From: Tribonema minus
Lineage: Eukaryota; Sar; Xanthophyceae; Tribonematales; Tribonemataceae
DNA: 64,000 nt
Assembly (NCBI GenBank): GCA_017506865.1
Contig: JAFCMP010000015.1
Location: forward strand, 186,001-250,000
Direction: 5' to 3'
Of this stretch, positions 15,701-64,000 are shown piece after piece. The position numbers and the translations under genes were made by a program. Position 1 is the first letter of the stretch, and every line of letters starts with the position of its first letter. The notes under the pieces are model-generated. The model ran no database searches and was not told the origin of the DNA. It saw only the letters and a list, made by a program, of their open reading frames with translations.

Positions 15701-18700
15701 GAAGCAAGCTGAACTTCTGCAGTAGTGGGGTGGCCCGTTCCACTTCAACGAGTTGGCCACAGGGGCGTATCTTGTCTGCTTACCAGCACTGGGTTGCAGC
15801 CCAAGGGCTGTTAGCCTGCTCCACCTGCCTCCTAGTGTGCATGCATAGCCCGTACATGGTCCACGATAAGTGCGATCAGTGCATAGGAGAGTCACCGTGC
15901 AACGCATGCTCGCTGCGCGCGCTCGCGCTCGCGTCCGCAGGCACCGGCCCCGCAGCACGACGCGCCGGCTGCGCCACGCGCTGCGCCAACACCACCGTGG
16001 TGCCATCTCCTGGACAGCGTACTCTGCGGTGTGCACTTCAACGATTGATACAGTGTGCTGCGGAGGGTGTAGGACACGGCACCTAACGCATGCCTGCAAC
16101 CGCTGGATTGCTCAGGTGGTTTTACGTAGAGAATAGTGTGGAAGTTCTCTAATCTACTCTACACTTGACACACAAGCGGACTTCTGACGCAGTCAATTAT
16201 GAGTAGCATTTCAGGCCAAGCCCGAGTCAGACCCCGCACAACGCACCTGCAGGAACTTATCGCGGCAGCGCGCGAGGCGCAGCACGCGCGCGACGATGTG
16301 GTTCCGCAGCACAAAGTACTTCATCCGGTACGTGTGGCTGCGCACGCAGTAGCTCAGCAGGTCGCACAGGTGCGCGAGGCACGCCTTGGCGGCCGCCGTC
16401 GCGCGCGCCGCCGGCGCCGCTGCCGCCGCGCCGCCGCCGCCGCCGTGCCGCGCGCTCCCACCTTCCCCCCCCTCCCCGCCCCCCTCGTCCCCCTGCCAGA
16501 ACGGCTCCACGAGCCACTGGATGTAGTGGTCGTAGAACGCGCCTAGGAACGCGTCGCGGTCCGCCTGCCCGTCCATCGACTCCGTGTCGAGGCACAGGCG
16601 CAGGACCTCCGCGGCCTGCACGACGACGCCCACGTCCGCGTCCGTCGTGAGCCTCCAGATCACCCAGAACAGCACGCTGCGGCTCGCCTCCGCGCTCGCC
16701 GCCATCGCCGCCGCGCCCCCCCCGCCCCCCTCCCCCGCGCCCGCCGGCCGCGCGGTGCCGTTGAGAAAGGACCCCGCCCCCGGCCGCTCCGCCGCCGCCG
16801 CCGCCGCTGGCGCCGCCGCTGCTGCGGTGGCGGTGGTGCCTCCGAGCTTGGCGCTGCCCGTGTAGGGCGGCGGCGGCGGGTGCGAACCGCGCTTGACGAC
16901 GTGCATGCGCAGCAGCGCCGGGTCCTGGTGGAGGCTGCGCGTGTCGAGGTTTGGGGGAGCAGGTCGTCAGAGAGGGTCTCGGGTGAGGTGCGCTGTGCGT
17001 TGCGGAGTTGAGCTGCGCGGCGGCAGCGCGCACTGCGGCGCAGCAGCGCCAGCGGCACGCTTCACATACATGTGTGATTTATGAAGCGCAAGTTGCTGGG
17101 GCGCCAGGCGCGCTCCCCGGCGCCTGCACGTCTGCAGCTCAAGCAGCGCATGACATGGCAGATTTTGTGGTATACACGGTATGTCCGTATGCAAGTGAGC
17201 ATGTATGTATATACACATGTACAGAAGTATGGTACACATGTACTGAAGTATGTACGTATGTACAGTAGCTTCGGACACGCGCCAGGCCGCTCACACCGTC
17301 CCTGCAACACCTCCAAAGCTCAGTCCTGCCAGGCGACGCGTGTCCGCGTCTGCCGACTTAACGACACGACGCGTGCACGGCATGGAACTAGCGAGCGCCG
17401 CACAGGACATGTAGCAGCAGCGCTCCGTTAAGGCGGGGGGGGGGGGGGGGGGGGGGGTATGTAGGTACGCACCTGTGTACGAGGACCTCCATGCACGCCG
17501 CGCGCTCCTTGGGCCACGCCCGCGGATCTGCCAGCACGTGGAGCAGGGCGTCAAATAGCGGTACCTGCAGGGGGATGGGGGGGGGGGGGGGGAAGACGGG
17601 CACGTTGCGAGATGCTGAGCACTGCGGGGCAGCGCGCTGCTGCGTGGCGCCGACGTGAACGACAACGTCAACTTGAAACACAACAACTTCAAATGCACGC
17701 GTTGCACGTAATGCATCTCGTGCCAGATATACTGATGGAACGTCTCGCCGTTGACCTCCTGAAGGGTCTCCGAATGCAAACTTCAACTTCAATCACAACT
17801 TCAACTGCACGCATGCGCGTACGCACCTCGTGCCAGAGGTACCGGTAGAACGCCTCGCGGTTGACCTGCTGCAGGGTCTTGGCCGTGGAGAACAGCTCCC
17901 TCAGGAACAGCAGCGCGTCCTGCCGCTTCGCCTGCGGCGCACAGGCGACGATTCGCGCGCAGAAGCAGAGTGTGTCAGCAGCGCTCGACATGCATGGGAA
18001 GAGAGCCTGGAACGCGCGAGATGGCGGCGCCTGCACCATCGCCGCCTGCGCGACGCGAGGGCGCTGCGAACAAGGAGCCGTGTTTCTCTTTCCGCCAGTA
18101 TCATGGGCACTCCTCACAGAGAGATGTTTTGGTGGCACGCATTCAGGAGTGGTCCTGACAGACGTTTCTGAATAGCGGCACGCTTCGCCCTGGTCCCGCC
18201 GCGTCAGCAGCTTTCAAAACCTAGTCAGCAGACGGCCGTGATGCGCGACTGGTACGCAAGAAGACCCCTGACCAGCTTCTAGAGGCTTTCAGGGGCTCAT
18301 TTACACCCCAGACCCCCAAAAGCAAGCCTGGCTGGCACCGCAGCGCACCAAACACCAGATGCCGCGTCGACTCTCACCCAGGTACATTCAATGCACAGGT
18401 AGACCGGGGGGGGGGGGGTCTGGCGGGCCACGTGCATTGAATGTACAACCAATGCACACGGAGACCGAGGGGGGGTGGGTCTGACGGGCCACGTGCATTG
18501 AATGTACCTGGGGGAGAGTAGACGAGGGATCTGGTGTTTGGCGCGCTGCGGCGCCACCTGGGCTAGTTTTTCCGGATCTGGGGTGTACACGAGCCCCCGA
18601 AAGCCTCCAAAAGCTGGTCAGGGGTCTTCTCGCGCTCCACTTGCGCATCACGGCCGTCTGCTGAGCCAGTATCGACTACTGTACTCCGAAGATGGGGGAC

Positions 18701-21700
18701 GTCCACTTGCAGTTGATGGCGCCCAGTACATTAATGTACCACCTCTGTACTGCACTGTGCTTGGGACACCATTTCAGTTGGTGGCGCCCAACACAGACAA
18801 CTCAACCCCACGTTCAATGACTGCGGAGTTACCAAGCTGATCCGGGCCACACTCTTTGAAATGACATAGCCGGCAACAACCCCCCCCCCCCCCCTGCCGC
18901 CTCCAAATGCCCCCACCAACCTGCGGCAGGTCCTTCTCCTCCAGCAGCACAAAGCCGCTGCGCACGTAGTCCAAGTCCTTGTGCAGCGTACATACATACC
19001 CCTATACCCCGCCTATACATACCCCCAAATACCCCCCCCACCTGTGGCAGGTCCTTCTCCTCCAGCAGCAAAAAGACACGGCGCACGTAGTCCGAGTCCT
19101 TGTGCAGCGCGCCGACGATGGCGCCGTTGTTGAAGTACGCGACGCTAGTGAGCGTTGCTGCGACGGCGTCGTCCATCATCGGCCGCAGCAGCGTGTCCTT
19201 GAGGAAGGCGATGCGGAAGTTCTGGTGGATCCTCGCAACGATCTCGGCGTCCTGCCGGAGGGGGGGGGGGCGCAGCAGGGGGGGGAAATGGCAAAGGAAA
19301 GTGGTCAGCGCTCGCATTGCGCGTGCCCAGCAAGCGGGGGATGGCAAGAAACATGGTCAGCGATGGCATCTTACGTTGAACGAAGAGGCTGCACAAGTTG
19401 CCGGACAGCGGGCACAGTATCTGCTTGCAGGAAGCGGAATAGAGGCGGAACGACAGCGCAGGTATGCGCAGCGGGAGCTCATCCACGCACGCGCGATGCT
19501 GAGGCTGCGCAACTGCAAAACCTCAACGCGCGTTGTCTGCAAGCAGAACACGGAGCACGACGGTGCAGCAGCAGAAGGTGGTGCAGGAATGCGCGGCAGA
19601 AGGTCGTCCAACGTGTCATGCGCGACTCACCTCGATGGGCAGCATCTGCTTGAAGGCAGCGAGAGCTCAGCCGACTCATGCGCCGCAGCGGCGTGTATGC
19701 GGGCACTGCATGCACCACCCCTCATACCCCGACCTGTACGGATGTACGACAGTTTATATGCATACATGCACTTGATGCTGAGGCGCCGCGACTCACCTCG
19801 ATGGGCAGTATCTGCTTGAACGTGGCGAGAGCTCATCCAACGCTTACGGGTGAGGGCTGCGCCCTCACCTCAAATGGGCAGTATCTGCAGGCAGAACAGA
19901 GGCAGACCGACGGTGCAGGACTGCGCAGCAGAATCTCGTCCCAAACATTGTCATGCGCGACTCACCTCGATGGGCAGTATCTGCCTGAAGGTGGCGAGAG
20001 CTCAGCCAAGACTTGATGCTGAGGTGCCGCGACTCACCTCACTGAGCAGTACCTGCTTGAACATTGCGAGAGCTCAGCCAACACTCGATGCCGAGGCTGC
20101 ACAACTGACAACTCACCTCGATGGGCAGTATCTGCTTGAAGGTGGCGGAGCGGTCCAGGAACGCGCGGTGCTCCGCGCGGCAGCGCAGCTCCGGGTCATA
20201 CTCAAAGACCCCCGCCATGCGGTTGAAGAAGCGGTCGCTCAGCAGCATCTCCAGCAGCCCGGCGTCGTTGAGGCACAGCAGCGCCTTGAAGATGGCGCAC
20301 AGCAGTCTGCGTTGCGCGGAGGGCAGACGCGTGGCGTTGCTCAGTCGCCTGTAGCGAGCGGCTTGCATACTGCGGTGGGTGCGCTGCGCGCAAATGCCGT
20401 GATGAGTACAGGCGACGCAGCTCCTTGGCATATGGCGCAGACCCACATCTGCGGTTGCGGAAGGCGGCGGCGGCGTTCTAAACCACAGGCGCATCATAGC
20501 GCGGTGCTTGTGCACTTCGACGGCCGGCGGCGCGAGCAGCACGGCGCAGCGGCGACAGCGCATTGCGCCACTCCACCAGGCGCTGCAACTCATGCAGAGC
20601 GCAGGCTGGCTCCGCATGCGACGGCAGCATGCCGCCAGGACAGGGGCTGCGGGCGAGGGAGGCAGCTGGCCGCACCGTAGCAGTTGATGAGCGCTGACGC
20701 TCGCAAATTCCGACGCTTGCACAGCGCTCAACTGATGGCAACCCTCCACTTAGCATACGCGACGCTACTTCGCTGATCATGATGCGAGGCCTTTGAGCTG
20801 TCAGCGGTGCCTGATCGTGTGCATCGCGATGGACGACCTCCGCGGCGTCGCCGCGCCACGTGCACAATCACCAACAGCCACAGCTGAGCACTGACAGCAG
20901 CAGCGACCCAGACAGGCCGCATCCCCGCACCAAGCTCCAGCACAGCTTCCCTCTAGTAAGGCTTTCTGTTCAATCCAGTACGAACAAGGCGAAGCAAAAA
21001 ACGACGCATGGGGGGGGGGGCTGCCTGAGCCTCTTCGCGCCTCTGGTGATAAGAAAGTGAGGCAAAAGAGAAGGGGCATGGGGGGGGGGGGGGGGGGGGG
21101 CTTGCCTGAGGCTCTCCATGTCCTCCAGATCCTCGCAGTCCGAGAACACCGCCAGCAGCTTCTCCACGTACTCGCCGTCCTTCGCAAACACGCCGTTCGC
21201 GACGCACTCCTTATGCTGCGGGCGGCGGCGGTAGCGGCGAGCGAGCGAGCGCGCAAGCGAGCGGCGGCGCGTGAGAGCGGCGCGGGTGACGCGTTGAGCG
21301 CCGCTGCGCTGGCTGCCGCGCGGTTTCAGGCACCGCGATGGACAGCGGAGTGAATATCAGCGACGTAGCGGATGCTACGCTGGTGCCTGCTCTGCTGGAC
21401 GCGCTCATTCGTGGCAGCGCTCAGCGGCTCTGCTGCCGCGCTCCACGCCTCACGGCGCGCGCGTCCCCCGCCTCTGCACCTGCGCGTGCGGACGGACGCT
21501 CCGAATGCACAGCTGCAGCAAAGGAGCGCCGCAGTCGCAGCTGATCGCTGCTGCGCCCTCAGAATGCCCATGCGCACGTCAACGTCTGACCGGCGTCCTG
21601 CGTCGTGACCCGGACAGCCATGCCGGCTACTGAGCAATGTGACGCTGTGTGCAGGGCTGAAGCGTTGCTGGCAGTGACGCTCCTGTACTGCACTGCACTC

Positions 21701-46200: not shown

Positions 46201-49200
46201 CAAACAGCAAGCAAACGAGATGTCAGGATTTGAGTGCCAGGTGCGTTCTGACGCGGTCAGAACGAGCGTACAAGAACATACCCACAACCCTAACCCTAAC
46301 CTTAATTCTAACCCTCATGATGGGAGGTCCGATGCGCTCGCGCAACAGCGCCGACCGCAGCGCCGAAACTGCGCTCGCAGCGATGCGATCGGCTGCCCGT
46401 TGAGGCCCGGAAGACCTTGAACCTGGCCCAAGAGTAACCCTGACCTACCCTGCTCCCAATCATATTGCAGCACCGATCCTTACGGTGAATGGCGCGTTCG
46501 CACACGCAGAGCTTTCAGCGCGCTCGCTCGCGCCCGTCAGCATGCCCCCGCCCTAGGGTTAGGGCCAGTTGCTGGTGCGCGCGCTGGCGCACGCGCCGCA
46601 CACATTCTCTCGTCAGCAAGGGCGCTGGAAGCACACTCAAGGAGTGAGGCGCGTCGCCGCTTGCAGTACGATGATCAAGTGTGCACCGCTGGCGTTTCGT
46701 TGGCGACGCCTGTTCTGGGCCTGCGGAAGCCAGTAAAGTGTCAGGTCAAGAGACTGAGACACGAGGGGCGACAGGCGCCGCGCGCGCGTGTTTGCCGCAC
46801 AAGAGAGCTGCGGAGCGCTGCTGCCGGCTGCGCGTTACAGGTCATTGCGCGTCACATGAATGTGTATTGTGGGCGCGACGGCGCGTCAGTTGATGTTGAT
46901 AAAGTTGAAGTTGGTGAGTTGAAGTGTAAATACCCGCGCGCATTCTTGCCTATTGAGACAGCCGCGGCTCGTAGTGCTTCACTCTTTGTTGACAGCAAAA
47001 TAAAAGAACTGCGCTTCGCAGGCGCGCAGCTCATCGGCACAGCATCAGCGCATCCAGTGCTTGAGAAGACATGACGCAAGGCTGCGCAGTGCAAATGCTT
47101 GGTGTGACGTGCATCAACTTCAACAGCAGATCATCATCGAAGTCAGTGCTCACCGCTGCCCGAAAGCAGTCCTCCAGAAAGGGGAGGTCGCCCTGCCGAT
47201 CCCTCGCTGCTTGCACCAGAGGGGGACCTGCATTGCGGCCAATGGTGCCAGCACAGTGTGAGCATGATAGCAAGGTGATCGGCGTTCTTTCTTGTTTTAC
47301 TTTAAATGAGGTAAGTTGCTGCACAGAAGGCCGAGCAAAAGGGACAGTCGCGTTCACAACTACTGTGCTTTGACTCGTATGGTTGAAGTTGACGAGCCCA
47401 CATCTGCACCTCCAGCATTGCACTGCAGGCACGGAATCGCATGCAGCGCAACGGCATGTGCATTGCCAGCATTGCAGTCCACCTGTTGCACGCACGTGCA
47501 TCGGAGGTGGTGCATTCGCAGCGATGACAGTTTCAAATGATGTTTACAAGCTGTTGCTACATCTACACGTGTACATGACCAAGGCGCGCAGTGTGCAGGG
47601 GTCTCAGCTGGTATGTATGTATCGACCAACTCAGCCCACCTACCCCGCCCTTGCACCAATCAGCCGTACATCAAGACTAACCCTAACCCTAACCCTAAGA
47701 CAGCGCAGCGCACAAGCGCGGAGGCTCACACTGATCCTAACCCTAATCCTGATCCTGAGCAACGGCGCATGCGGCGCAGTGTGTCCACGCCAGTCAGCCA
47801 CGTAGTGGTACAAGACACCACGTCTTGCAAATAGATCCTTCAACTTTTGCTCAAGCAGCAACGTCGTAGTCAAAGTAATTCAAAAGTGCCTGCATCGGCA
47901 GCAGCGACGCAGGCTACAACTGCCCTGGCGAGTGCGCGAGCGAGAGCACAAGTGGTGCGACTGCAACTCGAGACACGGCATCGCGTTTCATCTACACAAG
48001 TCACTTCAGAAAGAGCAAACTGCAAGAGACGCTTACCTAGAGAGTGTGCGTGCGGCGCAAGCGCAGTCCCCGCGGCCGCTGCCGTCAGCCGCAAAGCCTC
48101 CACGATGTCGCCCGCGGCGGCGCTGCTGTAGCGGCTGGCGTTCCGCAGCGCCTGCGATCAGTAGTCAACAATGGCTCCAAGGTTATCTAGCAGCTAGCAC
48201 GTCTAGCAGAACACGCAGCGCTGTAGCGTGAGCAAGGGGCGCCTGGCTGAGCAGTGCCGCGGACGCACGTGCGCAGCGGCAGAGCGCCGCTGTAGCGGTC
48301 GGCACTCCGCAGCGCCTGCAATCAGGTCAACAACGCTTTCAAGGTCAGCGGCTGGTACTGCTTCATAACTGCGTGAGCAGAACATGGCACCTTGTGGAGC
48401 GCTGTCGCGGACGCGCGCGTGCAGCGGCAGAGCGCTGCTGCAGCGGCCGGCGCTCCGCAGCGCTTGCAATCAGGCGGTCAACAACAACTGCAAGGTTGGC
48501 TCTTGGTACTGCTTCGGTGCTGCGTGAGCAGAATATGGCGTCTTGTTCAGCGCTGTCGCAGACGCACGCACACAGCGGCAGTGCGTTGGTAACTGGCACT
48601 TCTGCAAAGCACAACGCGCAGCACTGCAGCGCGAGCAGAATGGCATCTGCAAGCTGCGATCGGCGGTCAACGACCACTTCATCTTTGGCAGTTGATACTT
48701 CTTCATAGCTGCGTGAGCAGAACATGACATGTTGTTGAGCGCTGTCGCAACGTGCGCGCAGCGGCTGAGCACTGCTGGAGGCGCCAGTGGTGCGCAGCGC
48801 CCGCGACGGCGGTGCACGACAACGCTAAGGTCGGCAGCTGGTGATGAAAGAACACCCAACGTGCAGTGTGAGCGGATGGCGTCTTGCTGGGCAGCCTGCG
48901 GCGGCGTTGCTGAGCACTGCCGCATCTGCCGTCAGGAACTCACGGCGCCGGCAGAGGAAGAACTCAAGCACCCTGGCCTAAGTAGGCATTCATCTGCGCC
49001 GAAGGGGTGCAACGCATGCAGATAGCAGGCGTGCGGGGGACTGCCGCTGCCTCACCTGGCGCAGCATGCGAAAGCTTCGAGCGTTCGCTACAGCGCCTGC
49101 GGCACCGGCAATCAGCAGCTGCGGCATAGCCAGCGCGCACATCAATCGGAAGTGCGCGACACGCGCCACCAACAACCAAAATCAACATCGACGGCGGCGC

Positions 49201-52200: not shown

Positions 52201-54654
52201 GCTGCTCCGCGCCCTTGATGGTGACCTCCACCTGGATTGCACGGGGGCAGGGCAGGGGGGGGGGGGTGAACACAACCGGTGAGGCCCGTGACAATGACCT
52301 AGGCTTAGGGTTAGGGGTAGGGTTAGGGTTGTGGGCACCCGTGCGAGCGCCGAGCCCCAACAGTCCAATCCCAAGCCTGCTTCCGATCGTACTAACGGTG
52401 TCCAGTGTCACTGACCGATGCGTGCAGTGTGCAGCGCTGAACGCGGTGCGGATGTGAGAGCTGCGCGCCAGTGCCGGGTGCCGCAGCAGCGCATCGCGCT
52501 TGTCGCCCGTGCTCGGCGCTCGATGACGTGAGAGCTGCGCGCACGCGCATTGGGCAAGTGCCGCGGGGGGGGGGGGCGTTGCCGACAACTGCGACGTCGA
52601 TGCCGCGACCGTGCAGCGCGTCGAGTGACGCACGCACCAGGCTCACGCTTGCGCTCAAGCACGCCGCCGTGAAAGCCGAGCGTTGCTGCAGCAGCAGCAG
52701 CCCCCCCCCCCCCGGGCGCCTCACCACATCGCCCAGCAATTGACCAACGCACCAGCCTCGCGCTCGCGCCGGAACATGCAACCGTGAAGCGCCGAACGGT
52801 GCTGCAGCAGCACCCCCCCCCGGGCGCCTCACCACATCGCTCAGTAATTGACCGACGCACCAGGCTTGCGCTCGCTGGCGCTGGAGCTCGTCGTCGTGAA
52901 CGCCGAGCGCTGCCGCAGCAACAACCCCCCGTGCCTCAGGCTTCTCGTGGTACTCCTCGCTCTCCAGAGCGCCCTTGAGTGACCGTCCAGATCCCCCAGC
53001 CTGTCCAGCCTTCTGTCACAGCTACCTCGAAGCGCATCGCTCAGCGACCCAACGCACGCACCAGGCTCGCGCTCGCACTCGCACTCGAGCGCCGCTCGCG
53101 CTCGCACTCGAGCGCGCCGCTGTGAACGCCGAGCCCCTGCTGCAACAACATACCCCCCCACCACATTGCTCAACGACACACCACATCGCTCAACGCACCA
53201 GGCTCGCGCTCGCGCTCGAGCACGCCGCCGTGAACGCCTCCCAGTCGGCGGCGGCGAGGGCGTCCAGAAAGGCGGTCACGGCGCGCGCGAGCGCCGCGGA
53301 GAACGCTCCGCGCGGACCGAGCCCCCGCGCCAGCGCGCGCAGCCACTGGAACAGCGCCTCCGACACGTCCTCCACAAGGTCGCAGACGGCGGCGTGGCAG
53401 TGGTCATCCGCAGGCGGCGGCGCAGAGAGGCGCAGGAGGCGCGTCGCCGCCTGCAGTTGGGGTTGGAGGGGCGCCGCACGGCGGGGGGGGGGGGGGGGGG
53501 GGGGGGAGTGGTGAGGGTTGTTCGGGGGGGGGGGGGGGAGGGGGGGGAGACGCGCAGGAGGTGTGTCGCGGCGTAAGTTAACTCTTCAGCTGTGATGAGT
53601 TGATTCCTTTGGCAACTTCATCATCGATTATTACAAACGGGAAGGCGCGCGCCGGTGGAACCGCTCGAAGAACCGCCGGAATCAGGGCAGGGGGCCCTAA
53701 ACTGTATTCGAAGAGTAGTTGGCGCGCAGTAGACAACGAGGTCTGCCGAGGCGGCTGTGACGCCTCTCTCGCACACCGGAAACGCACGGGCATGAACTGT
53801 TTTGACCCCTCCGACACCATGCGTGACACGCATTATTCAGCAGTGCTGGCTCAGGCCGCCGCGCGCTGCTGCGCGTGGGTTCTATGCGCTCGGCAGTTAC
53901 ACCGTAACAGCCGCCACGCCCCCCCTCATTAGCCCCGCCACTGCAACCCCCGGGCGCACCTACCTGTGTGGCGCTGACTTTAACCGCGGTCTCCTCCCAG
54001 AACTCAGGGGGCTCCAGCACCGCCGTCCGCAGCAGCGCCGCGAGCTGCGGCACGGCAGCGCTCAGCGCCTCGCGCTGCGCCGCCGCCGCGTGCTGCGCCG
54101 CCAGCCCCGCCGCCGCCAGCAGCACCGCCAGATCCTCGCGGCGGTCGTCTGCGCACGTGTAGCAACGAGTACGAAGTATTACATAGGCTTAGATGCATGT
54201 ACCATTGGGATGTTATCATCATGCGGTCCATCGGGGGGGGGAGCAGCATATGCCGCTGTGCTGTATGTGGCACGTGTGTACGTCTCGTGTCCTCCTACAC
54301 TGCACTATACTGTACACAGTCTTGATGCACTTTGATCAAAACTATTTTGTTATCAGCACTACAGTGCTGAGCACTGCTGCGTTGTGGAACGCCGCCTTCG
54401 CACACGCGCTGCAATGGGGCACCAGCCGCACAAGCTTGTGCCGCGTGAGCGGTTCCCCCCTCCCCCGCGCCAAGATAAACGCAATCATCGGGGCTGGTCG
54501 CTGCTACACAAAGAGCATAAAAAACAACAAATAAGAGGCTGCTCACCGGCGACATCGGCTTCGGTCGCCGCCGTGGCGAGCTGCAGCAGCTCTCCCAGCC
54601 ACACCTCAGTAGCGGGAGCGTCCAGCCCTGATAGCTGCGCCTTGACCCACGCGG
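43270..54654 (-). CDS. Large Ala-rich alpha-helical protein, family unknown (HEAT/ARM-like?); 5' exons not found
   Basis: Exons in order: 54547-54654, 53964-54148, 53199-53450, 52060-52231, 51164-51750, 50464-50589, 49208-49486, 48037-48151, 47154-47227, 46006-46197, 44810-45278, 43270-43565 (TGA at 43270); about 950 residues. All junction phases agree (0 or 1), which strongly supports one gene; the start exon lies above 54654. The product is made of short amphipathic helices with few charged motifs (VWLGELLQLATAATEADVAG, SEALFQWLRALARGLG, VASALDVVERIPRQLKALLQ), as in HEAT/ARM solenoids such as karyopherins, but no diagnostic motif is present and I do not assign a family. Ala/Gly linkers interrupt it, and exon 44810-45278 codes an acidic Glu/Gly/Asp run. 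Three exons have edge copies in adjacent introns. Confidence 0.6.
46286..46317. repeat. Interstitial telomere-like repeat (CCCTAA on plus)
   Basis: ACCCTAACCCTAACC followed by variants, in the intron upstream (gene sense) of exon 46006-46197. Confidence 0.85.
47676..47758. repeat. Two interstitial telomere-like tracts (CCCTAA on plus)
   Basis: A clean CTAACCCTAACCCTAACCCT tract and, 40 bp on, a degenerate CCTAACCCTAATCCTGATCC tract, in an intron. Confidence 0.9.
48152..48900 (-). repeat. Array of acceptor-edge copies upstream of exon 48037-48151
   Basis: The exon start (ALRNASRYSSAA) with its GCAG acceptor recurs near 48285-48320 (ALRSADRYSGAL) and 48430-48470, and in weaker form near 48620 and 48790. 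Copies are joined by a repeated intron segment containing GTGAGCAGAA and GCGCTGTCGC. The period is about 145-170 bp. Confidence 0.75.
49490..49990. repeat. Diverged tandem duplication of intron sequence, about 250 bp unit
   Basis: 49490-49730 and 49755-49990 share GGCGGCGA..GGAGACxGCACGC, CGGAGAGCGCG and CCTGGCGGTG blocks in order. It lies in the intron upstream (gene sense) of exon 49208-49486, beginning at the exon's 5' edge. Confidence 0.65.
50357..50395 (-). repeat. Donor-edge copy of exon 50464-50589
   Basis: Matches the exon end (GCGAAAGAAAACCGCGGCC...GCAG then GTATG), 107 bp into the downstream intron, with the donor intact. Confidence 0.85.
50636..50805. repeat. TG/CA-rich microsatellite tract
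   Basis: Long imperfect TG dinucleotide runs broken by CATGCGCG and similar words, within an intron of the large helical protein gene. Confidence 0.9.
52300..52331. repeat. Interstitial telomere-like repeat
   Basis: CTTAGGGTTAGGGGTAGGGT-type units in the intron upstream (gene sense) of exon 52060-52231. Confidence 0.85.
52638..53125 (-). repeat. Array of four donor-edge copies of exon 53199-53450
   Basis: The exon end (coding FTAACSSASASL, then GTGCGTTG) recurs with edges at 53062, 52861, 52753 and 52638 in the downstream intron, all retaining GTGCGT. Each copy is preceded by CTGCTGCAGCAG-like sequence and followed by a C/G run. Spacing is about 105-205 bp. Confidence 0.88.
53480..53545. 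repeat. Long G/C homopolymers at exon 53199-53450 acceptor
   Basis: Two plus-strand G-runs, about 24 and about 17 long, together with GGGG-rich linkers. In gene sense they form a C-tract upstream of the CTGCAG acceptor at 53451. Confidence 0.9.
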
Positions 54655-57060
54655 CTGCAGCGCAGCGGCGCACACGGCAGCACCCAAGTCAGCAGCGCGG
54701 TGTGGTGTGCGAGGGTCCGGCAACGTGCAGCACTTTTAATGGATGGCGTGCTCGGGTGCTCGGTGGGTGTCTGCATTTGCCTTCAAGCTGCTGGACTTTA
54801 GCCTGCCCCATGCAGGGAATAGAAAAGCTGCTGCTGCGAGTGCAAAGGTTTCATGTTGCTGATGGTACAGTGAGCAGTGGTGGTTTGCAGTGCACCGAAG
54901 CACGGCGGCGACGGTTAGGTGTAAGGGAAGCTAGCCACTGACCCACTGAGGCCTGGCAGCCTACTACTAACATCCCATCCCACAGCACAGGTGGCAGTAG
55001 TGAGGTAGGTGTGACTCGTGCCTGCGACAAGCGCCTGCCTCTTCGTGCACCGCCTTCGAATCGCATAAACTTGCACGTTGGAATTGGAAAGCACGAAATC
55101 ACTCACACAGGGCATATTGACGCATGTGATTGGACTTTACGCCAAACTCTCAGAGGAGCAGTGTGCGACTGGCGCGACTAATGGACATCAAGTCATATTT
55201 CACAGAGTGTCGTCCTGTGAGGTTTGCAGTTGAGGTGCAGCAGGTAACGATGCATGACAATTCGAGCAACAGCTCTTATTGCTAAAGCAGGTTCCATTGC
55301 TCTCTATGGTCACATTTCAAAACGTGTTGTCGTCGTCTGAGGTGATCACGGGTCTCACCCTCCCGTCCCGACTGCCGCAAGCCTGCAAGGTCAAACGTCA
55401 TGGCGCCGCGCGCCCTGGCGGCCGCCCTGAAGGGCCCTTGGCCTCTCGTGCGCTCCCGGTTCTCCAACGCCACTGTGTCCAAAGAGCGTCACCTCCTGCT
55501 TCTTCAACTTTGCGTTGAAGTAGGACATCAGGTGCCCTCCACCCCGAAAGCTGTAAAAGGTGCCCGCAGCCACGACATTCACCCTCGACGACGGCAGCAG
55601 GGTCAGCTACGACAACCATCGCGCAGCACTGGGAGGGCGTGAGGGGGATGATGCAGCGCTCCAGGCGCTCAGAGAGGCTTGAGGCTGTTGGCTGAGCGAC
55701 AGCGACAGACAACAGGTCTCGACACCCACTCAAACCTATCAGCGACGCGTCAGTGCTCATCAGTAGCGCTTGTTGTCAATGAGGCTACCTGAAGCTGCAT
55801 CCCCCTCACGCGTTGCCAGTGCGGCGTCGTGGTTCTTGTAGCTAGCCCTGCTGCCATCGTCGAGGGTAAAAGTCTTGGCTGCGGGTACTCGAGCACGAGC
55901 CTCAGCGTCAGAGTGAGGTCCAGCATGCTACGGTGCAGAGTTCGAGGTGCCACTTGCGGATCAGGTGTCAATTGCAGTTCACGCCCTCCGCCCGCCTCTT
56001 GGAGTAGCATCTGCGACTCCCCCCTTGAGCTGACACCCGACAGAGCCAAGACGCAGTGCTTCCTACATGAGGCGATATTTGTTGCCGCCTGCCCGCCGAG
56101 GCCTGCAACAAAAGCCTGGCGACCGGTGGGAGCCAGGCGCAACTGCGGGTGCGGTACTACATCGGCAGATTATTGGCTAGGTACTGAGAAGTCGACGATT
56201 TGTACGGGGGCTGCATCCGACGCTGCTTCCAAGCGATTGCCGCGCCATGTAGAAAGCCACGAAACATTGATGCCAATGCCACTGGCGGCCTCGCGCGAGG
56301 GTTTAAACGGTAGGAAGTGGTATAATGCGGCCGCGCTGCATGCCATCGTGTGGCGTGCAAGCAGTGCGCCGCGCAGCTGCACGCTCCCCCGCGTAGCGGC
56401 CCGCATCCCGCTGCCTGACCTCTGTGATACAGCAAAGCAGCCTGGAGTCTATGTTCTTGAGCAATAGAGCTGCTGAGCTGCTAGTGACATCAAAGTGCAA
56501 CCAACTTGCAGGGCAAACATCAGTGGGGCAAACAAAGACACACCTGTGTAGACATGACTGAAGAAGGAGAGTGAGCCCAATGGATATGGCTCAGCTCCAG
56601 AGGTCTTGCTGTCTCCCAGCCAGGATGGCCTCTTGTTGCTTGCCTTGTAGGTGCCTCGAGCACTTGTTGTTGAAGCAAAAAAAAGCCGTCCTCCTAGTTG
56701 CTGGCACAGGGCTTGAAGTTGAAGTACCGGTCCAGAGAACGGTCTCCCCCTTCCAGAGCTCCTGGCATTTCATGCTACTTGTAGCATAAAACAGAGAACT
56801 TGTATCATCCCTCTTCTTTGAAAGGGCCGCCGTCCGCGGCGCCCACTAGACTGGTGCGCGGAAGTCGACGTTTTATGATACTTGATATTCAGCAATCCGC
56901 CTGCTCTGTCGCATCATAGCCAGGTTCTTGTCTTGTCTAGGTTTAGGGTGCGTCACCGTTCACCGTTCCTTCACGCCAAGCGCGTGAGCTCAACACGGCT
57001 TCAGGGTCAACACCGATGCTTCACCGCTCCTTCGCACCACGCGTGCGAGTTCAACGCGAT
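54655..57060. other. Region without a complete gene, flanking the retroelement
   Basis: Should contain the missing 5' exon(s) of the helical-protein gene and the 3' LTR of the retroelement, but neither could be fixed. It includes the inverted pair at 55560-55888. Just before the polyprotein stop, two imperfect about 50-bp units (56966-57017 and 57021-57072) share CACCGxTCCTTCxC and GAGxTCAACxCG. Confidence 0.45.
55560..55888. repeat. Inverted pair of related coding-like segments
   Basis: 55560-55657 (plus) and 55794-55888 (minus) are about 80% identical and point toward each other. In matching frames they code PAATTFTLDDGSRVSYDNH and PAAKTFTLDDGSRASYKNH, each running to a stop. Differences fall mostly at third positions and one gap is 3 bases, as expected for protein-coding paralogues. 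They may be last exons of a tail-to-tail duplicated gene pair; upstream exons were not resolved. Confidence 0.5.
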
Positions 57061-60000
57061 TCAACATTTGCGCAGGCGTTTCTGGGGTCTAGTATCCCCG
57101 GTCTCGTGACTTGCAGCTGGCAAATCAATTTGTATGTCGGCCTTGAGCGGCTCCTCGGCGAGCTCGCGTGCCAGCATGAGGTTCCAAGATGAAGGTTCAG
57201 CTCGAGCGTCATCACGGTAATATTCGGCTCTGAGCTTCAAACGCTTCTCTAGAGGCTTTTGTCCTCGCGTGTTGGGGAACTCCACATCAAAAGTGAATTC
57301 TCCACAATCGCGCTTGGCGGACACAAGCCTAAGCAAGACGCCGCGGCTCCATCCGGAAGGGAACCGGTAGCGGAGAACTTGGCCAACGTAGAGTGGTCCA
57401 AAGTCAGTTGGCAAGCATGGACTCACAGTCACTCTTACATTAGCAGGCGGGTCAGCCGTAAGGCTGGAGTCAAAGGCAGGTTCTGGCTCGTTGCGCTGAC
57501 GCGCTAACCTACGCAGTCTGTCGCGCACGCCTTCGGCCATGAGCTTAGCAGCCCGTACCTGAGAAGACGTTAAGTCCTCCCACGTGCCATCAGAGTAGCG
57601 TACACGCCAGCGGGACAGCGCGAAGTCACGTACCTGGCCCCACAAGTAGTCAGTCGAGTTCGGCACATCATTGACTTGCCGGACCACTTGCGTGCCGCAA
57701 GGGTATCGCAGCAATGCAGCATCTTTGGACAGCGTGCAATCTTCGCGAGGAAGGTGACGTTCAGCGTATGGGGGAACGTTACCTTGGTGCTTGAGCTCAT
57801 ACAAAGCATGAAAAGTGTCCAGTACCCATGGTGGTATGAACACCAGTTCTACAAGCTCTTTCTCGCGCACCCACTCTGAAGTAGTGCCGTCGCGCGCCAG
57901 CCACTTGTATGACCAGCCGCCGTCCTCGTCAGCTCTGCGGTCCAGTATCTGGCACAATTGCTGGTCAGGGTCCAGCTCTTGCAGTTGCGCGGAGTCCAGG
58001 AGGGCATGTACTCCCTCAATGTCAAGTCGCGCGGGTCTGGGGTGATATGGCTTCATGTTTTCAACATGCGCGGTGGTCTCGCGTATGCGCGTGCCCATGA
58101 GTTGGCATTGAAAAGAAAGCCCTGAGTCACCGTACGGAGCTACTAGCTTCCAGGGGCCAGTGAAATGCTCCTCAATGGCACTTGCGCGGCCGCGTGAAGG
58201 TGGTTTCTTGATCCACACATAGTCACCGACCTCCAAGTGTACAGTGCGTTGGATTTGGTCATTGCGAGCTTGAATGCGCTCAGCACGTTGCTGCAGCGCC
58301 TCGCCAACCGCCTCCTCAGCAAGTTTAAGATTTTCTTGCAGACGCTTTACCTCAGCATGTAGGTCTTGTGGACTTGCAACCTCAGAGGTCAAAGCGTCAA
58401 GAGGGAAGCGTGCTTCGCGACCATAAACACAGAAGAATGGGGTCAGACCCGTCTCCTCCCTAGGCGTGTTCCTGAGCGCAAATTGCACGGCATCAAGGTA
58501 TACATGCCAGCGTGCCTGGTAGCGAGAACAGAGTCTAGCAAGCGCTCGCTTGACGCGCCCATTCATGTTCTCAACGACGCCGTTAGACTGGGGGTGATAT
58601 GCGCTGGTTTCAATCTTGTGCACTTTAAAGAAGGTGCAGAGCGTGGTTATCAGCGCACTCATGAATTCTGCGGCCCTGTCAGACATCAGCTCTTCCACAA
58701 GCGCGCCGCACTCAAAGAGCACTCTTGCCAGTAGGGGTGCGGCCTCAGCTGCTGATCGTGTCTTTACGGGGAAAAGCCAACAGTAGCCTGACCTAGCTTC
58801 GGTGATGATGAGCAAGTATCGATGCCCTTCTGAGGAAAGGACGCCGACTTCGGTGTAGTCCACATGCAAGCGTTGCCACATGTGTGTAGATGGCATCAGT
58901 GCTTGCTTGTACCTGGCAGTGGACTGCGGTTTGGTTTGTTGACAAGGGACGCATGAGCGTACGTAGTCTCGGACGTCAGCGCCTAACCCTCTCCAATACA
59001 TGCGTTCCAGCACCTTGGCGTGCGTGGCAGCGGTCGAGGGGTGTTGAGCACTGCCATCATCATGGCAAAGACGGAGCACTAGTGGCTTCAAAGCGTCGGG
59101 GATCACCCACTGAGTAATTAAGGTGCCCTTCTTTGACCGACTTGCCATGAAGTGCACGAGTAAACCGTCAGGTTCAACTGTGAAAAACTCTTGGTTCTGG
59201 CTGACAAATTTGGCAAGGCTAGGGTCAGGGGTCTGGCCTTGTGTTTCCAGATAGTGCTTCACAGATGAACAGAAATGGTCACTTTCCTGCCAACGCACAA
59301 AGTTTTTGCGTTCCAGCATAGCAGGTGAAGACTCTAGGCGTGAGTCAGACTCTCCAGTCTGGGTTGACATATTGTCATCTGAAGTATCTGCTTCAGCGTC
59401 TTCAGCTCCAAGGGCAAGGTCAGTGATTTCGCTAGTTTCGGTTGGAGCAGTTGCATCTCTAAGCGGCGAGAGTATCGCAGCGCAGCTGTCCCAAATGTGC
59501 TCAGAATACGAGCCCAATTTCATGCTGCAAAGCATGGAAACGAGGGGAGTGTTTTCTAGTTCTGGTTCACCTCCCTCTTCTTTGAAAAGCGCGGTGTGCA
59601 CGCACGCGCTCTCGTGCATGGTATCACTGAGGTCATGTACCTCCTGAGGTGTCAATGTACCCATGCGGTTGCTCAGTTTTGTAGATATTTGTGCAAGTTT
59701 GTTAAATTTAAAAGCCGTGGCTCCTGGGCATGCCGTATAAGCACCTATACGGCCTAGAAATGCTGGTGAGTCTTGCAGTTGTTCATCATCAAAACGTACC
59801 CCAGACGGAGGTGCAGGTCCAGCATCGGTGCAGTCGGGCCACTGCTCGTCAGCGTGCTCGTACTGCCTAGGTCCGATGATCTCCGTCATCTGAGGCATGC
59901 GTGAAGGGCAGTCTGCATTGCCATTGTCTTTGCCAGGCCTGTGTACGACCATGATGTCGTATTCCTGGAGACGCATGGCCCAATGTAGCAGCTTGCTATT

Positions 60001-63000
60001 GTGATTGTTCAAGGTCAAGAGCCAGCGAAGCGCAGACGCGTCGGTTACGACGGTTACAGGTCTGCCCCAAATGTAACCGCGGAAGTTGTTCAAAGCTAGC
60101 ACTACAGCCAGACACTCTAGTGCAGTAGCACCAAGTTTTGCGTCCTGCACTGAGTTAATCTTGCTGAAAAATGCCACAACTACCTCTCTGGCAGGTTTGC
60201 CGTCAACTGTGTTGACACGGCGCGTGCTGGCCCAGGGGAAGTCCTTGTGCCGTTCACGTAATTTGTCTAGTGGCACGAATTGAGATAGAACACCAGCAAC
60301 GGCTAGCTTGCTTGCGTCTGTATGTACTATAAAAGGTAGGTCAAAGTCTGGGTGCATGATCACAGGAGCGTTTGACATGGCGTGCTTGAGTTTGGCCAGC
60401 GCCTCTTGGCGGCGTTTGGTCCACGACATGTCAGCGCCATCACGCGTACACTCGACTAGGGGAGCTGCAATATGCGCGAACCGATGTATGTAGCGCCTAT
60501 AGTAATTGAAGCACCCCATGAGGACTTGCATTAGCCGTTTATCTACCTTGCCGTCCTTGCCTACGGGTGGCATCATGTCGACCATGGCTTTTACTTTGTC
60601 CTCACATGGCTTGATTCCATACTTGCCCACCTTGTGGCCTAGGTATGTAACTTCTTCGGCAAAGAGTTGGCACTTGTGTCTAGACACACTCATGCCGTAC
60701 TCTTCCACGCGTCGAAGTACATCGTCCAAGTGAGCTATATGGTCTTCTAGATTCTTGCTGTGTACGAGCACATCATCAACGTACACGCACGCATGCGTTT
60801 GCCTGGCTGAGCCTAGGAGCTCATGCATGCATCTGGTGAATATGCTTGGCAGGCACACCAACCCAAACGGCGCGACCTTGTACTCCCAGAGTGAGCCATC
60901 AGGTGCCCGGAATGCCGTCTTGCAGGTTGATTCTCTAGTCATAGGTATTTGCCTGTAACCAGAAGCAAAGTCTAGTGCCGAGAATATGCGTGAGCCCGAG
61001 CATTTCTGAACCAAGTCGTCCATATTGCCAAGCCCATACTCATCACGGCGTGTAACTCTGTTGAGCGGCCTATAGTCAACGCAGAAACGGACCTTGTCCT
61101 TCTGAGTCACCAGCACTGGATTGCTAGCCCAAGGACCATTGGCAGGTCTGATCTGTCCGCGTTTGCGCTCATTTTCAATGGCTTCAAATATGATTTTAGC
61201 TTCGCGTTCAGCCCACCTGCGTGCCCTGTCGGCGATGGGCGCTGCGTCGCCTGTGTCAATGTCCACGTCAAAACGGTCCGTCACCTTGGGGTTCTTGGGG
61301 TCCTTGGCAAAGGCGCCTCGTCGCCGGCGAAGCACCTCCATGGCGCGGTCATAATAGGTGACGCCGTGTCGATCGCGTTGCTTGAGGATGTTGAAGATCT
61401 CCCCGTTCTTGTCACACAGCACTTCACGTAGCTCCTCGTCTGTGCAAGTTCCCAGCGAGGCATTGTGCTCCTCTGCCACCTTGTGTCTGAATGCGGCTCG
61501 TTCCGCCTCAGCGCGCATGGCAGGGTCTGGTCTTGGCGAGTCGTGTTCTGGCACACACGAGGGGTCTGGCTGCTGCACAGGTCTTGATCTGTTTACAGCA
61601 GGTGTATCTGGTGCGTTTTGCCCAAGGTGTCTCAACGCAATTCTTGTCAAGTTAGCCACAAGCTCCTCTTTGCCAATGTCTAGGCTGCAGATCATGTCAG
61701 GGGCCTCAATGACGCCTAGCACTGCACCTCTAGGCACAAACACTGGCGCAGTGGAAGTGTTCTCGACTAACATCCCTAGTGGCTTGTTAGGTGCTACAAA
61801 GTCCACCGTATCCATGAGAACGGCACCTCTGGTGGCCAGCCTGTTTGTCATCACTGACGCCTCTGGCGCGTCAGGGGTGAGTAGCACTTCAACAGGGCCT
61901 GTGCACTGTACTGGTGGATGTGACACTACTTCAATGGTTTTAGCGGTGTCAGCTTTAAGCACCTGGTCACACGTTGTACGCAGCAAATAAGTGCGACTAG
62001 GCAAAGTGGGCCTCTGAGAAGACTTGGCTCTTGTAACACCCACCTTGATCGTGTTGGCAGCTGGGGGGTCTAGAGTCCCCAACTTAGCTTGTTCATGCAT
62101 GGCAACGGCAGGTCCAGCGGATCCAGCGGGGTGGAATCGCATGCCATGTTCATAGGTGATGGACGAGCCAAATTTGCCAAAGAAATGTGACCCCAAGATT
62201 GCCTCGTAAGGCAGGTCCACCACGTAAAAAGCGTGTGTGAATATGGTGTCTTTGAAGCGCACCTGGGCGTGCACTACACCTGAAATTGGCACAGACTTCT
62301 TGGCGTCTGCAAGTTCAACCGTGGTAAAATCACCCTCGGAGAGCGGGCAAATTGAACCCGGCGGCAACTGGTGTGCGCGTTCTGTGTTAATGAATTCGGC
62401 CTCGGCGCCGTTATCCACTAGCGCGTCAAGTACCAGTTCTTGTATGCCGTTACCAACTTGTGTGCGTATTGGCATGTGCACAAAGCCATTCTTCTTAGGT
62501 TTGCCGACTGCACGTGCCCTATGTAGAATCTTGGGAGGCTTGTCACGTGCTATGCGCCTGGGTTGAGTCTTGAAAACATCGGTAGCAATGCTACTAGCAC
62601 TAGGCTGCTGAGCATCTGCATCGCTGTCAGTGTCGCTCATTTCTCGCATTGCAACAGCACGTGGCGTCTCGACATGCGGCGCATGAGAAGCATGAGGAGT
62701 CAAAGGCTCTTCCTCATCTTCACCGTACGTCCAAGGCGTCTGCGAAACCGGTGCATCACTTCCAGGCCCAAATGATGCAAGTATGGCTTGGCCTACATTG
62801 CGTGTAAAACGCTGGAAGTTCCGCACGCAAGCACTAGCTAGGCGCAATATTGCAGGCCGATCAGGACCGGAGTCTACCATCCATTCTGGCGGGGGAGAAG
62901 TGCGATCATGCACTACAACCTCACCTGGTAAGACGCCAGTAGCATCGCGAGGGCTTGGCCATTCCTCCGGCAAGGCAGCAACCGCGTGCAAGGCAAGCAT

Positions 63001-63639
63001 GAGCGCTGACACGCAATTGGGTTGCACTAAGTTTGCAGCCCAGCGCTTCATCTGAGTGACAGTCCCGGAAGGATGTGGCTCAAAGTAGCCCAGCAAGTTC
63101 ATGACCTGATCAACAGTCAAGACAAGGGCCTTATTAACTGGTCCTGCGTCTTTCTCACGTGGCTGATAAGACGAGGAGGGGCCCCGCCCAGGCTGGCGAG
63201 TAACAGGGCTAGGGAGCGGCATGTCAGTAGACAGCACGCCTTGCGTCGTGGGTTGCCTCGGGTCCCAATAAAACGTGTCATGGGAGCAACCAAGATGTTC
63301 ACGGACCGTACGTGGCTTGCTGGTGCGAAAGCGCTCATTGAGAATTGCATTCAAGCGTGCAAATCGTTCAGGCAACCGAGCAGCATTTGCAGCTGACACA
63401 GTATAGACGCGCTCACGTGAAGATGCACCATTAACGTCGGTCCCACGAAACTGCACCTCATAGGTGGAGTACCCCTTTGTACCCACGACGCGGCAGAAGT
63501 CACGCCATGAGCTTGATAGGAGCATCCTAGGCACGTTTTCGTTGATGACTAGAGCTGGCAGGCAATCGGCAGCAATCTCTGCAACATGTACAAGCGTGCG
63601 TGCTGCATCGCCTTCAACCCCATTCCCGCAGGGGAAAAC
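57061..63639 (-). CDS. Retrotransposon polyprotein: methyltransferase C-terminal half, protease, RT, RNase H, integrase, chromodomain-like and Tudor-like modules
   Basis: The frame is open from 63639; residues are numbered from the GTG at 63534 (2,157 codons). Just upstream of 63534 the frame codes the methyltransferase motif VI (ENV), then SSRER (motif VIII, residues 38-42) and LVQPNCVSAL (motif X-like, about 169-178). The linker to about 360 is disordered. Aspartic protease: VDNGAE at 373-378 (DNG instead of the usual DTG/DSG). Reverse transcriptase about 780-970 with FSALDFASGYRQIPM and YVDD at 918-921. RNase H Asp1073, Glu1140, Asp1165. Integrase HHCC zinc site (His1491, His1498, Cys1528, Cys1531) and D1559, D1619, E1655 with 35 residues between the last two. 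A chromodomain-like stretch at about 1862-1893 (ILDRR..WSYKWLARDG..SEWV) and a Tudor-like one at about 1964-1990 (GQVRDF..WRVRYSDGTWEDL) follow. Translation probably relies on frameshifting from the upstream frame. Confidence 0.95.
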   Translation of the reverse strand, partial: VFPCGNGVEGDAARTLVHVAEIAADCLPALVINENVPRMLLSSSWRDFCRVVGTKGYSTYEVQFRGTDVNGASSRERVYTVSAANAARLPERFARLNAILNERFRTSKPRTVREHLGCSHDTFYWDPRQPTTQGVLSTDMPLPSPVTRQPGRGPSSSYQPREKDAGPVNKALVLTVDQVMNLLGYFEPHPSGTVTQMKRWAANLVQPNCVSALMLALHAVAALPEEWPSPRDATGVLPGEVVVHDRTSPPPEWMVDSGPDRPAILRLASACVRNFQRFTRNVGQAILASFGPGSDAPVSQTPWTYGEDEEEPLTPHASHAPHVETPRAVAMREMSDTDSDADAQQPSASSIATDVFKTQPRRIARDKPPKILHRARAVGKPKKNGFVHMPIRTQVGNGIQELVLDALVDNGAEAEFINTERAHQLPPGSICPLSEGDFTTVELADAKKSVPISGVVHAQVRFKDTIFTHAFYVVDLPYEAILGSHFFGKFGSSITYEHGMRFHPAGSAGPAVAMHEQAKLGTLDPPAANTIKVGVTRAKSSQRPTLPSRTYLLRTTCDQVLKADTAKTIEVVSHPPVQCTGPVEVLLTPDAPEASVMTNRLATRGAVLMDTVDFVAPNKPLGMLVENTSTAPVFVPRGAVLGVIEAPDMICSLDIGKEELVANLTRIALRHLGQNAPDTPAVNRSRPVQQPDPSCVPEHDSPRPDPAMRAEAERAAFRHKVAEEHNASLGTCTDEELREVLCDKNGEIFNILKQRDRHGVTYYDRAMEVLRRRRGAFAKDPKNPKVTDRFDVDIDTGDAAPIADRARRWAEREAKIIFEAIENERKRGQIRPANGPWASNPVLVTQKDKVRFCVDYRPLNRVTRRDEYGLGNMDDLVQKCSGSRIFSALDFASGYRQIPMTRESTCKTAFRAPDGSLWEYKVAPFGLVCLPSIFTRCMHELLGSARQTHACVYVDDVLVHSKNLEDHIAHLDDVLRRVEEYGMSVSRHKCQLFAEEVTYLGHKVGKYGIKPCEDKVKAMVDMMPPVGKDGKVDKRLMQVLMGCFNYYRRYIHRFAHIAAPLVECTRDGADMSWTKRRQEALAKLKHAMSNAPVIMHPDFDLPFIVHTDASKLAVAGVLSQFVPLDKLRERHKDFPWASTRRVNTVDGKPAREVVVAFFSKINSVQDAKLGATALECLAVVLALNNFRGYIWGRPVTVVTDASALRWLLTLNNHNSKLLHWAMRLQEYDIMVVHRPGKDNGNADCPSRMPQMTEIIGPRQYEHADEQWPDCTDAGPAPPSGVRFDDEQLQDSPAFLGRIGAYTACPGATAFKFNKLAQISTKLSNRMGTLTPQEVHDLSDTMHESACVHTALFKEEGGEPELENTPLVSMLCSMKLGSYSEHIWDSCAAILSPLRDATAPTETSEITDLALGAEDAEADTSDDNMSTQTGESDSRLESSPAMLERKNFVRWQESDHFCSSVKHYLETQGQTPDPSLAKFVSQNQEFFTVEPDGLLVHFMASRSKKGTLITQWVIPDALKPLVLRLCHDDGSAQHPSTAATHAKVLERMYWRGLGADVRDYVRSCVPCQQTKPQSTARYKQALMPSTHMWQRLHVDYTEVGVLSSEGHRYLLIITEARSGYCWLFPVKTRSAAEAAPLLARVLFECGALVEELMSDRAAEFMSALITTLCTFFKVHKIETSAYHPQSNGVVENMNGRVKRALARLCSRYQARWHVYLDAVQFALRNTPREETGLTPFFCVYGREARFPLDALTSEVASPQDLHAEVKRLQENLKLAEEAVGEALQQRAERIQARNDQIQRTVHLEVGDYVWIKKPPSRGRASAIEEHFTGPWKLVAPYGDSGLSFQCQLMGTRIRETTAHVENMKPYHPRPARLDIEGVHALLDSAQLQELDPDQQLCQILDRRADEDGGWSYKWLARDGTTSEWVREKELVELVFIPPWVLDTFHALYELKHQGNVPPYAERHLPREDCTLSKDAALLRYPCGTQVVRQVNDVPNSTDYLWGQVRDFALSRWRVRYSDGTWEDLTSSQVRAAKLMAEGVRDRLRRLARQRNEPEPAFDSSLTADPPANVRVTVSPCLPTDFGPLYVGQVLRYRFPSGWSRGVLLRLVSAKRDCGEFTFDVEFPNTRGQKPLEKRLKLRAEYYRDDARAEPSSWNLMLARELAEEPLKADIQIDLPAASHETGDTRPQKRLRKC

Positions 63640-64000
63640 TCAACACAAGAAGATGTATTCCAAATCGCGTCTGGCTTGAGGTGCTTGAGCCTCTCGCGAA
63701 CTTGGGGGCTAGATACATCTGCACATATGACCTCGGTGTCAGGGAAGAGTTTGCTGTACTCCTCACATGTACGCTTGCAGTTGTCTACCGCTAAGACCAC
63801 CTGCACGTCAACGTCTGCTGCACGTGCGAACTCCTGCAACCCCCTATGTACACCCCCTATTCCACAGCACAACTCTGCCACCCGCAGCCGCCTTCTGTCC
63901 GAACGCCCCGCGTCGGCATCAGACGCCTCCTTAGTCTGCGGATATGACACGGGCGAAGTGGTGGAAGTAGGTGCAACGCATCTGGGGTCAGAGTCAGAAA
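63549..64000 (-). CDS. Cytosine-5 DNA methyltransferase, N-terminal half, within retroelement (partial at window edge)
   Basis: The frame is open from the window edge to TAG at 63549. Numbered from the GTG at 63950: S-adenosylmethionine-binding motif I AELCCGIGG at 25-33, motif II VLAVDN at 52-57, motif III ICADVS at 75-80, motif IV region NTSSCVEFSPAG at 98-109 with the candidate catalytic Cys102. The Pro that normally precedes this Cys is Ser here. The rest of the domain (the AR-x-L helix, ENV, SSRER, motif X) lies in the overlapping -1 frame of the polyprotein. No start codon is visible: the Ser/Asp/Thr-rich sequence upstream is open to the edge and could be the end of a gag-like region. 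Such enzymes methylate C5 of cytosine in DNA. Confidence 0.92.
   Translation of the reverse strand, partial: SDSDPRCVAPTSTTSPVSYPQTKEASDADAGRSDRRRLRVAELCCGIGGVHRGLQEFARAADVDVQVVLAVDNCKRTCEEYSKLFPDTEVICADVSSPQVRERLKHLKPDAIWNTSSCVEFSPAGMGLKAMQHARLYMLQRLLPIACQL

Follow-up and report, generated by a model that had tools for sequence, protein, structure and literature searches.

The 64,000-nucleotide stretch of Tribonema minus DNA analysed here (the window; C15:186001-250000 within the 158-Mb assembly) carries on its minus strand a Ty3/gypsy retrotransposon, in a copy that is recent and defective. The intact form of this element is a single Gag-Pol polyprotein with a cytosine-5 DNA methyltransferase (C5-MTase, or MTase) between gag and the protease (PR). 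The copy extends over window positions 56425-67662, running past the window end, and the adjoining sequence was included. A Ty3-type retrotransposon with its own C5-MTase had been proposed in a preliminary description, and the proposal was confirmed by the long terminal repeats (LTRs), a target-site duplication (TSD), the order PR, reverse transcriptase (RT), RNase H and integrase, and a PF00145 match of 32.1 bits.

The same description had placed the MTase contiguous with the PR-RT polyprotein. This arrangement was found within a single open frame of 3177 amino acids (aa) in five fetched copies (C234, C404, C435, C471 and C23) and within one of 3180 aa in C134. The order in C404 is gag core (406-605), MTase (901-1212), protease region (1370-1479), RT (1795-2045) and integrase (2502-2826), with domain limits placed by eye from conserved words. 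An assembly join was rejected as the source of the arrangement. In a genome search with 149 MTase residues as query, covering the best 150 of 322 candidates, 27 of the 150 matches (window copy included) had 90-100% identity across 129 residues or more, and the same order occurs in polyproteins encoded by database contigs that are 33 and 54 kb long. The contiguity is genuine, as it recurs in many contigs and in two divergent database polyproteins (P0002 and P0003).

The window copy and its relatives

At 19 other loci of the same family, the MTase was open in 17 (no stop within 330 aa past motif I), and the remaining two had stops at 275 and 168 aa past motif I. Over about 11.2 kb, the copies in C404, C435, C471 and C23 each differed by 0-5 substitutions from the commonest letter of five aligned copies. 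Since C435 (L026/L027) and C23 (L030/L031) have the same flanks, they represent one insertion seen twice, as haplotypes or a duplicated contig. Full-length copies with LTRs were also recovered, direct repeats of at least 98% identity being present in eight of the 11 fetched copies (two ending at the fetched boundary). No direct repeats were found in the fetched C513 and C40 sequences, and C234 starts at a contig end. Matching 4-bp TSDs were seen by eye in four of six inspected copies, two of these four being the same insertion; the other two, C471 and C442, had no matching TSD.

A genome search with PF00145 covered the best 123 of 378 candidates, all 123 being above the cut-off. Merging these with the 150 query matches gave at least 222 loci (221 with a 5-kb gap), which are MTase-like loci rather than elements, and among which broken copies may count more than once. 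At least four of them look like ordinary genes (two in C223, one each in C181 and C523). Stand-alone C5-MTase frames of 367-390 aa were observed at L056, L057 and L058 (C223 twice, C181); the nearest solved structure to L057 is M.HhaI, and L057 had no viral-contig match.

The RT survey comprised 150 of 151 matches, from 1416 candidates, with two rows being pieces of one RT. An MTase was present within 6 kb upstream on the same strand in 85 of the 150 (median distance 2889 bases), and these paired with 84 of the 222 loci. A rough sorting of the RTs, according to where the match to the RT profile begins, put 91 rows into the window class and 59 into a second class. All 85 RTs with an upstream MTase belonged to the window class, and the finding that 85 of the 91 listed rows of this class carry it speaks against a lack of the MTase in other copies. 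The other six (C257, C105, C323, C6, C27 and C112), in frames of 338-1829 aa, may be truncated or may hold an MTase that was not scored. The 65 rows lacking a listed MTase were not accepted as free of the domain, as both rows read among them (L060 and L062) hold an MTase-like domain. At G000:C311:3853-7197, an MTase-RT element occupies a single open frame which, at 6208 aa, has about double the usual length; it is perhaps tandem or fused.

Outside this genome, three polyproteins with this MTase were found in the protein collection among 4759 candidates. P0001, with 99.3% identity to family B across 1874 aa, derives from the same or a very near species, and P0002 (48%, 3112 aa) and P0003 (46%, 3241 aa) have the same domain order. 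A search with the MTase only, covering the best 8000 candidates, added the fragments P0004 and P0005 and one remote protein, P0006 (27%). No relative was found on viral contigs in four scans with four MTases, in which records near this genome may be left out.

The LTRs of the window copy are identical over 385 bp and share 4-bp CAGA flanks, which indicates a young insertion. The 3' LTR (TGATACA...TGTATCA; 56425-56809, minus strand, as are all window features below) matched the 5' LTR by self-BLAST at 100% over the 385 bp; the latter lies outside the window at C15:253278-253662, corresponding to window positions 67278-67662. The TSD on the 3' side, CAGA in element orientation, is at 56421-56424, its partner being beyond the window beside the 5' LTR (flanks by eye). 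Immediately ahead of the 3' LTR is a polypurine-rich tract, tcaaagaagagg (56810-56830), the function of which is predicted. The repeats of the element are plain direct LTRs.

One minus-strand polyprotein carries C5-MTase, PR, RT, RNase H and integrase, in this order. The frame of 2192 aa at 57061-63639 includes the second half of the MTase, a linker, PR, RT, RNase H, integrase and a C-terminal extension. Pfam matches within it supported RT (60628-61098, with YVDD; 111.8 bits), RNase H (59959-60348; two RNase H models) and integrase (58591-59103), the last with an H2C2 zinc domain (62.0 bits) and an rve core at 29.1 bits, under the cut-off of 32.6. The typical Ty3/gypsy order is therefore present, with a weak PR match under the Pfam cut-off. 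The aspartic protease region (62158-62487) reads VDNGAEA in the window copy versus DTGA and DSGA in the relatives P0002 and P0003, and had weak matches below the cut-off in intact relatives. The C-terminal extension past the integrase core (57064-58173) is 45% identical to P0002 and P0003. Its Tudor-like match, PF21743, was weak (E 0.0015, 18.7 bits, cut-off 27.2), and its structure model was too poor in quality for a fold search.

The window copy is defective, as its MTase frame is broken just past motif IV, where the two open frames overlap (63549-63639). The upstream frame, 754 aa at C15:249552-251813, ends within the window (63549-64000) and extends past it; it includes the gag core, a zinc-finger-like CxxC...H..C (by eye), a spacer and MTase motifs I-IV. 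The C5-MTase domain spans 62959-63893, with limits placed by eye from conserved words and the fold taken from the P0002 relative. PF00145 matched the upstream frame at 32.1 bits (cut-off 22) and the continuation in the polyprotein frame at 15.6 bits, under the cut-off. About 1.47 kb including the leader and the gag N-terminus (C15:251807-253278) is inverted in comparison to C404, at 99.3% identity by BLAST. The impression from global alignment that the 5' leader of this copy was unrelated sequence was discarded on the basis of this result. The inversion breakpoint sits at the primer-binding site (PBS), outside the window and adjoining the 5' LTR. As the inverted copy has identical LTRs and a TSD, it was either mobilised inverted, inverted afterwards, or mis-assembled. 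The flanking host DNA holds short tandem arrays at four places (window 18382-18507, 19956-20096, 48258-48585 and 52709-52929), their units being 61-151 bp long. Light-harvesting genes of this genome matched proteins of the FCP and chlorophyll a/c types in solved photosystems, which points to a host of the red lineage with chlorophyll c.

Methyltransferase groups, catalytic motifs and selection

The MTases that were read fell into three groups at two polyprotein positions, gag-MTase-PR-RT and gag-PR-MTase-RT, which is unusually many groups and positions for a single genome. Group 1, to which the window copy belongs, is formed by families A-F, I and O; where the reading extends far enough (A, B, P0001, P0002 and P0003), the MTase precedes the protease. 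Group 2 is represented by L061 (C340:2001-12000), which was read through RT and has its MTase after the protease and before RT; its gag, with a CCHC knuckle (by eye), is in a separate frame, with one stop codon between gag and pol. Group 3 includes L060 (C214:47001-56500) and L062 (C15:513601-521824), the two rows read of the 59 in the second RT class, in both of which an MTase-like domain follows PR and precedes RT. The L062 domain passed the Pfam cut-off (32.5 bits), and L060 had no Pfam match.

RT identity was 0.91 between families A and B and 0.72-0.75 between A and P0002 or P0003. Over all between-group pairs it was 0.30-0.39 (A versus group 2 0.32, A versus group 3 0.33-0.34, group 2 versus group 3 0.38-0.39). 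Profile comparison found groups 1 and 2 similar over 299 columns (probability 99.2, E 3e-19). In an MTase tree of 25 rows and 214 columns, with long branches and without any DNMT3 sequence, groups 1, 2 and 3 each formed one side of a branch (support 89/88, 100/99 and 100/100, respectively), and the 15 retroelement MTases came together (91/91). Membership in DNMT2 was rejected, as the DNMT2 clade (100/99) excluded all 15 of them.

Against the PDB, the group-1 profile scored best with DNMT2 chains (48 bits), followed by M.HhaI (33) and DNMT1 (26). DNMT3 was not named among the 52 PDB sequences matching this profile to E 10, which comprised DNMT2, bacterial MTases, DNMT1, Rad8 (the DNMT5 entries) and one unrelated enzyme. 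Nor was a DNMT3 chain present among the 50 rows of a fold search with the P0002 relative, a result that alone excludes nothing. Judged from these comparisons, DNMT3 is not the nearest class of these MTases, the nearest apparently being DNMT2/HhaI-like. The MTases may derive from one old capture followed by a position shift, or from separate captures.

Motifs I, IV, VI and VIII of C5-MTases are present in the element, and the catalytic residues were invariant across eight aligned group-1 MTases. Two single copies have a changed motif I and are probably decayed: L049 (C64) reads CCRALGG versus CCGALGG, and L053 (C212) YFGAGG versus YCGAGG. In group 3, motif IV of L062 is altered to STRCEGAS, and L060 misses 25 residues including the motif IV cysteine. 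The L060 domain is in an open frame of 3455 aa, and three other listed loci have frames of 3455, 3455 and 3452 aa.

The MTase is under purifying selection, with omega of 0.09-0.26 where dS exceeds 0.03. Comparison of families A and B gave amino acid identities of 0.48 (gag), 0.38 (spacer ahead of the MTase), 0.63 (MTase), 0.39 (linker past the MTase), 0.76 (PR), 0.91 (RT) and 0.77 (integrase). Omega for this pair was 0.19 in the MTase, at a dS of 1.7 (near saturation), and 0.50 in gag. For L042/L044 it was 0.137 inside the MTase domain and 0.33 outside, and inside the domain it was 0.18 for L042/L043 and 0.23 for L044/L043. Whole-frame values (MTase and flanks) were 0.09 at dS 0.37 for L045/L050, 0.18 for L047/L048, 0.15 for L048/L049 and 0.26 for L046/L045. 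Four pairs with dS below 0.02 gave scattered, little informative values (0.09-0.73). Between L062 and L060, identity was 0.695 in the MTase-like domain (omega 0.147), 0.51 and 0.61 in the linkers, 0.61 in gag and 0.93 in RT.

Tentatively, several deeply separated Ty3/gypsy lineages may carry undescribed, non-DNMT3 C5-MTases at two positions, one proliferating lineage having a catalytically dead yet conserved domain. If this is true, MTase capture would be the rule and not an oddity among the Ty3 elements of this genome, with both enzymatic and non-enzymatic uses.

Predicted priming and possible function

Immediately past the 5' LTR, TGGCTCAGCTCCA is common to families A and B, and its complement is inside both LTRs, near position 208-217. 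This 14-mer is the longest word common to the A and B LTRs, in which no more than 214 of 412 aligned columns agree. The putative PBS is complementary to LTR-derived RNA over 14 nucleotides in A and B and over 18 in the window copy, and the predicted RNA fold from the LTR site to the PBS closes end to end. The fold energies of two A copies were unremarkable (z -1.65 and -0.89), and that of B had a z of -3.15. The PBS arrangement in A and B fits self-priming as predicted from these pairings; a tRNA primer is also possible.

We consider it somewhat probable that the element, of which the window holds a recent and defective copy, is self-primed and that its packaged MTase methylates its own cDNA; methylation of this cDNA seems the likeliest function. 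The mRNA would act as its own primer, with the 5' end, inside the LTR, paired to the 14-nucleotide PBS. The MTase would be packaged with Gag-Pol, freed by the protease, and would methylate the double-stranded cDNA of the element before or at integration. New copies would then arrive marked and be silenced or tolerated by the host, resulting in less damage and long persistence.

Methylated CG decays, and CpG depletion is therefore expected if copies have been methylated for long. The observed/expected ratio of CpG was 0.886 in the window element versus 1.027 in its flanks; the corresponding values were 0.888 and 0.787 for C404, 0.888 and 0.879 for C435, 0.887 and 0.805 for C471, and 0.831 and 0.781 for C442. 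The lack of consistent depletion across these five copies weighs against methylation of the cDNA, although the copies are young and the ratios thus weak evidence either way. Other points weigh in the same direction. Family A has SC in place of PC in motif IV, and in the structure model the catalytic loop (residues 83-92) is of low confidence. Several of the dS values are near saturation or beyond. DNA itself is a presumed substrate, and the MTases of KnitGypsy and SymbioLINE gave no methylation in yeast, a result called inconclusive by the authors (PMC5890265). The L060 copy, from a proliferating lineage, has no catalytic loop, and catalysis is thus not needed by all relatives.

This loss raises the possibility that the domain serves mainly in structure or in the binding of nucleic acids, for instance as a nucleocapsid helper, with catalysis dispensable. 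The L060 domain is still 69.5% identical to that of L062, above the linkers (51% and 61%), within its long open frame; however, L060 and L062 may have diverged in large part before the loop was lost, and the catalytic residues are invariant across the eight aligned MTases of group 1. We regard such a role as improbable. An RNA substrate, with the MTase modifying the element's own mRNA or the primer duplex in a DNMT2-like manner, would agree with DNMT2 chains being the best PDB matches of the group-1 profile and appears quite improbable. The enzyme might instead act in trans on the host genome, where a higher background of methylation would hide the mark of the element or misdirect host silencing. 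The at least 222 C5-MTase loci in one genome, with at least four apparently ordinary genes among them, are in line with this, as is the link of DNMT-bearing elements with the unusual Symbiodinium methylome (PMC5890265). The window outside the element is not depleted in CpG, however (ratio 0.98), and action in trans is rated unlikely.

Comparison with known elements

The preliminary description had allowed that the class may be known, and MTase-bearing retrotransposons were indeed published by de Mendoza 2018 (PMC5890265): DNMT3-class MTases in DIRS elements and in the Pol frame of a Klebsormidium Gypsy, and orphan MTases in LINEs, with activity demonstrated for the DIRS MTases. KnitGypsy-Dnmt3 of Klebsormidium nitens, like the present element, has Gypsy-type domains and several copies, and its C5-MTase is part of the Pol frame and under purifying selection (PMC5890265). 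It has a DNMT3-class MTase and DIRS-like repeats, whereas here the nearest class is apparently DNMT2/HhaI-like, the LTRs are plain direct repeats, the host is a red-lineage alga, and the MTases form three groups at two polyprotein positions. SymbioDIRS-Dnmt3 and SymbioLINE-Dnmt of Symbiodinium are alike in that very many retrotransposon-borne DNMTs occur in one algal genome (PMC5890265). Those elements are DIRS and LINE, unlike the present LTR/Gypsy; the SymbioLINE MTases were called an orphan lineage, and the present MTases likewise fall outside the classes tested.

Gypsy elements of Ectocarpus with a C-terminal chromodomain or Tudor domain share an extension past the integrase, the present Tudor match being under the cut-off. 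In the available part of that source no MTase is described for these families, and an N4-cytosine/N6-adenine MTase is found in a Sola DNA transposon (PMC12477816). Self-priming LTR retrotransposons of the Tf1/Tj1 type are alike in having a PBS complementary to a segment of their own 5' LTR transcript. The accessible text mentions no MTase in them (PMC4600332), unlike in the present element, the RNA 5' end of which is a predicted one.

DNMT3 members have also been placed in LTR Copia and DIRS elements (PMC12344493), and the consulted portion of PMC9998398 reports no MTase-bearing retroelement of such kind. In the open literature, with subscription papers and preprints outside the scope, no C5-MTase Gypsy elements were found beyond de Mendoza 2018 and the works citing it. 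DAM- and DCM-encoding Ty3/Gypsy and DIRS elements, with proposed antiviral roles, are described from several groups of algae, among them the stramenopiles (PMC6338049), and this restricts how far the present elements can be claimed as the first of their kind.

To the DIRS, LINE and single charophyte Gypsy carriers of cytosine MTases, the present work adds LTR/Gypsy elements that are young and abundant in a red-lineage alga. Their enzyme class is a different one, and among them is a natural candidate for the loss of catalysis. Whether an element gains by methylating DNA is testable within this one genome, where live, altered and lost catalytic loops occur. Retrotransposon-borne DNMTs are already known; the enzyme type and the polyprotein positions found here look new.
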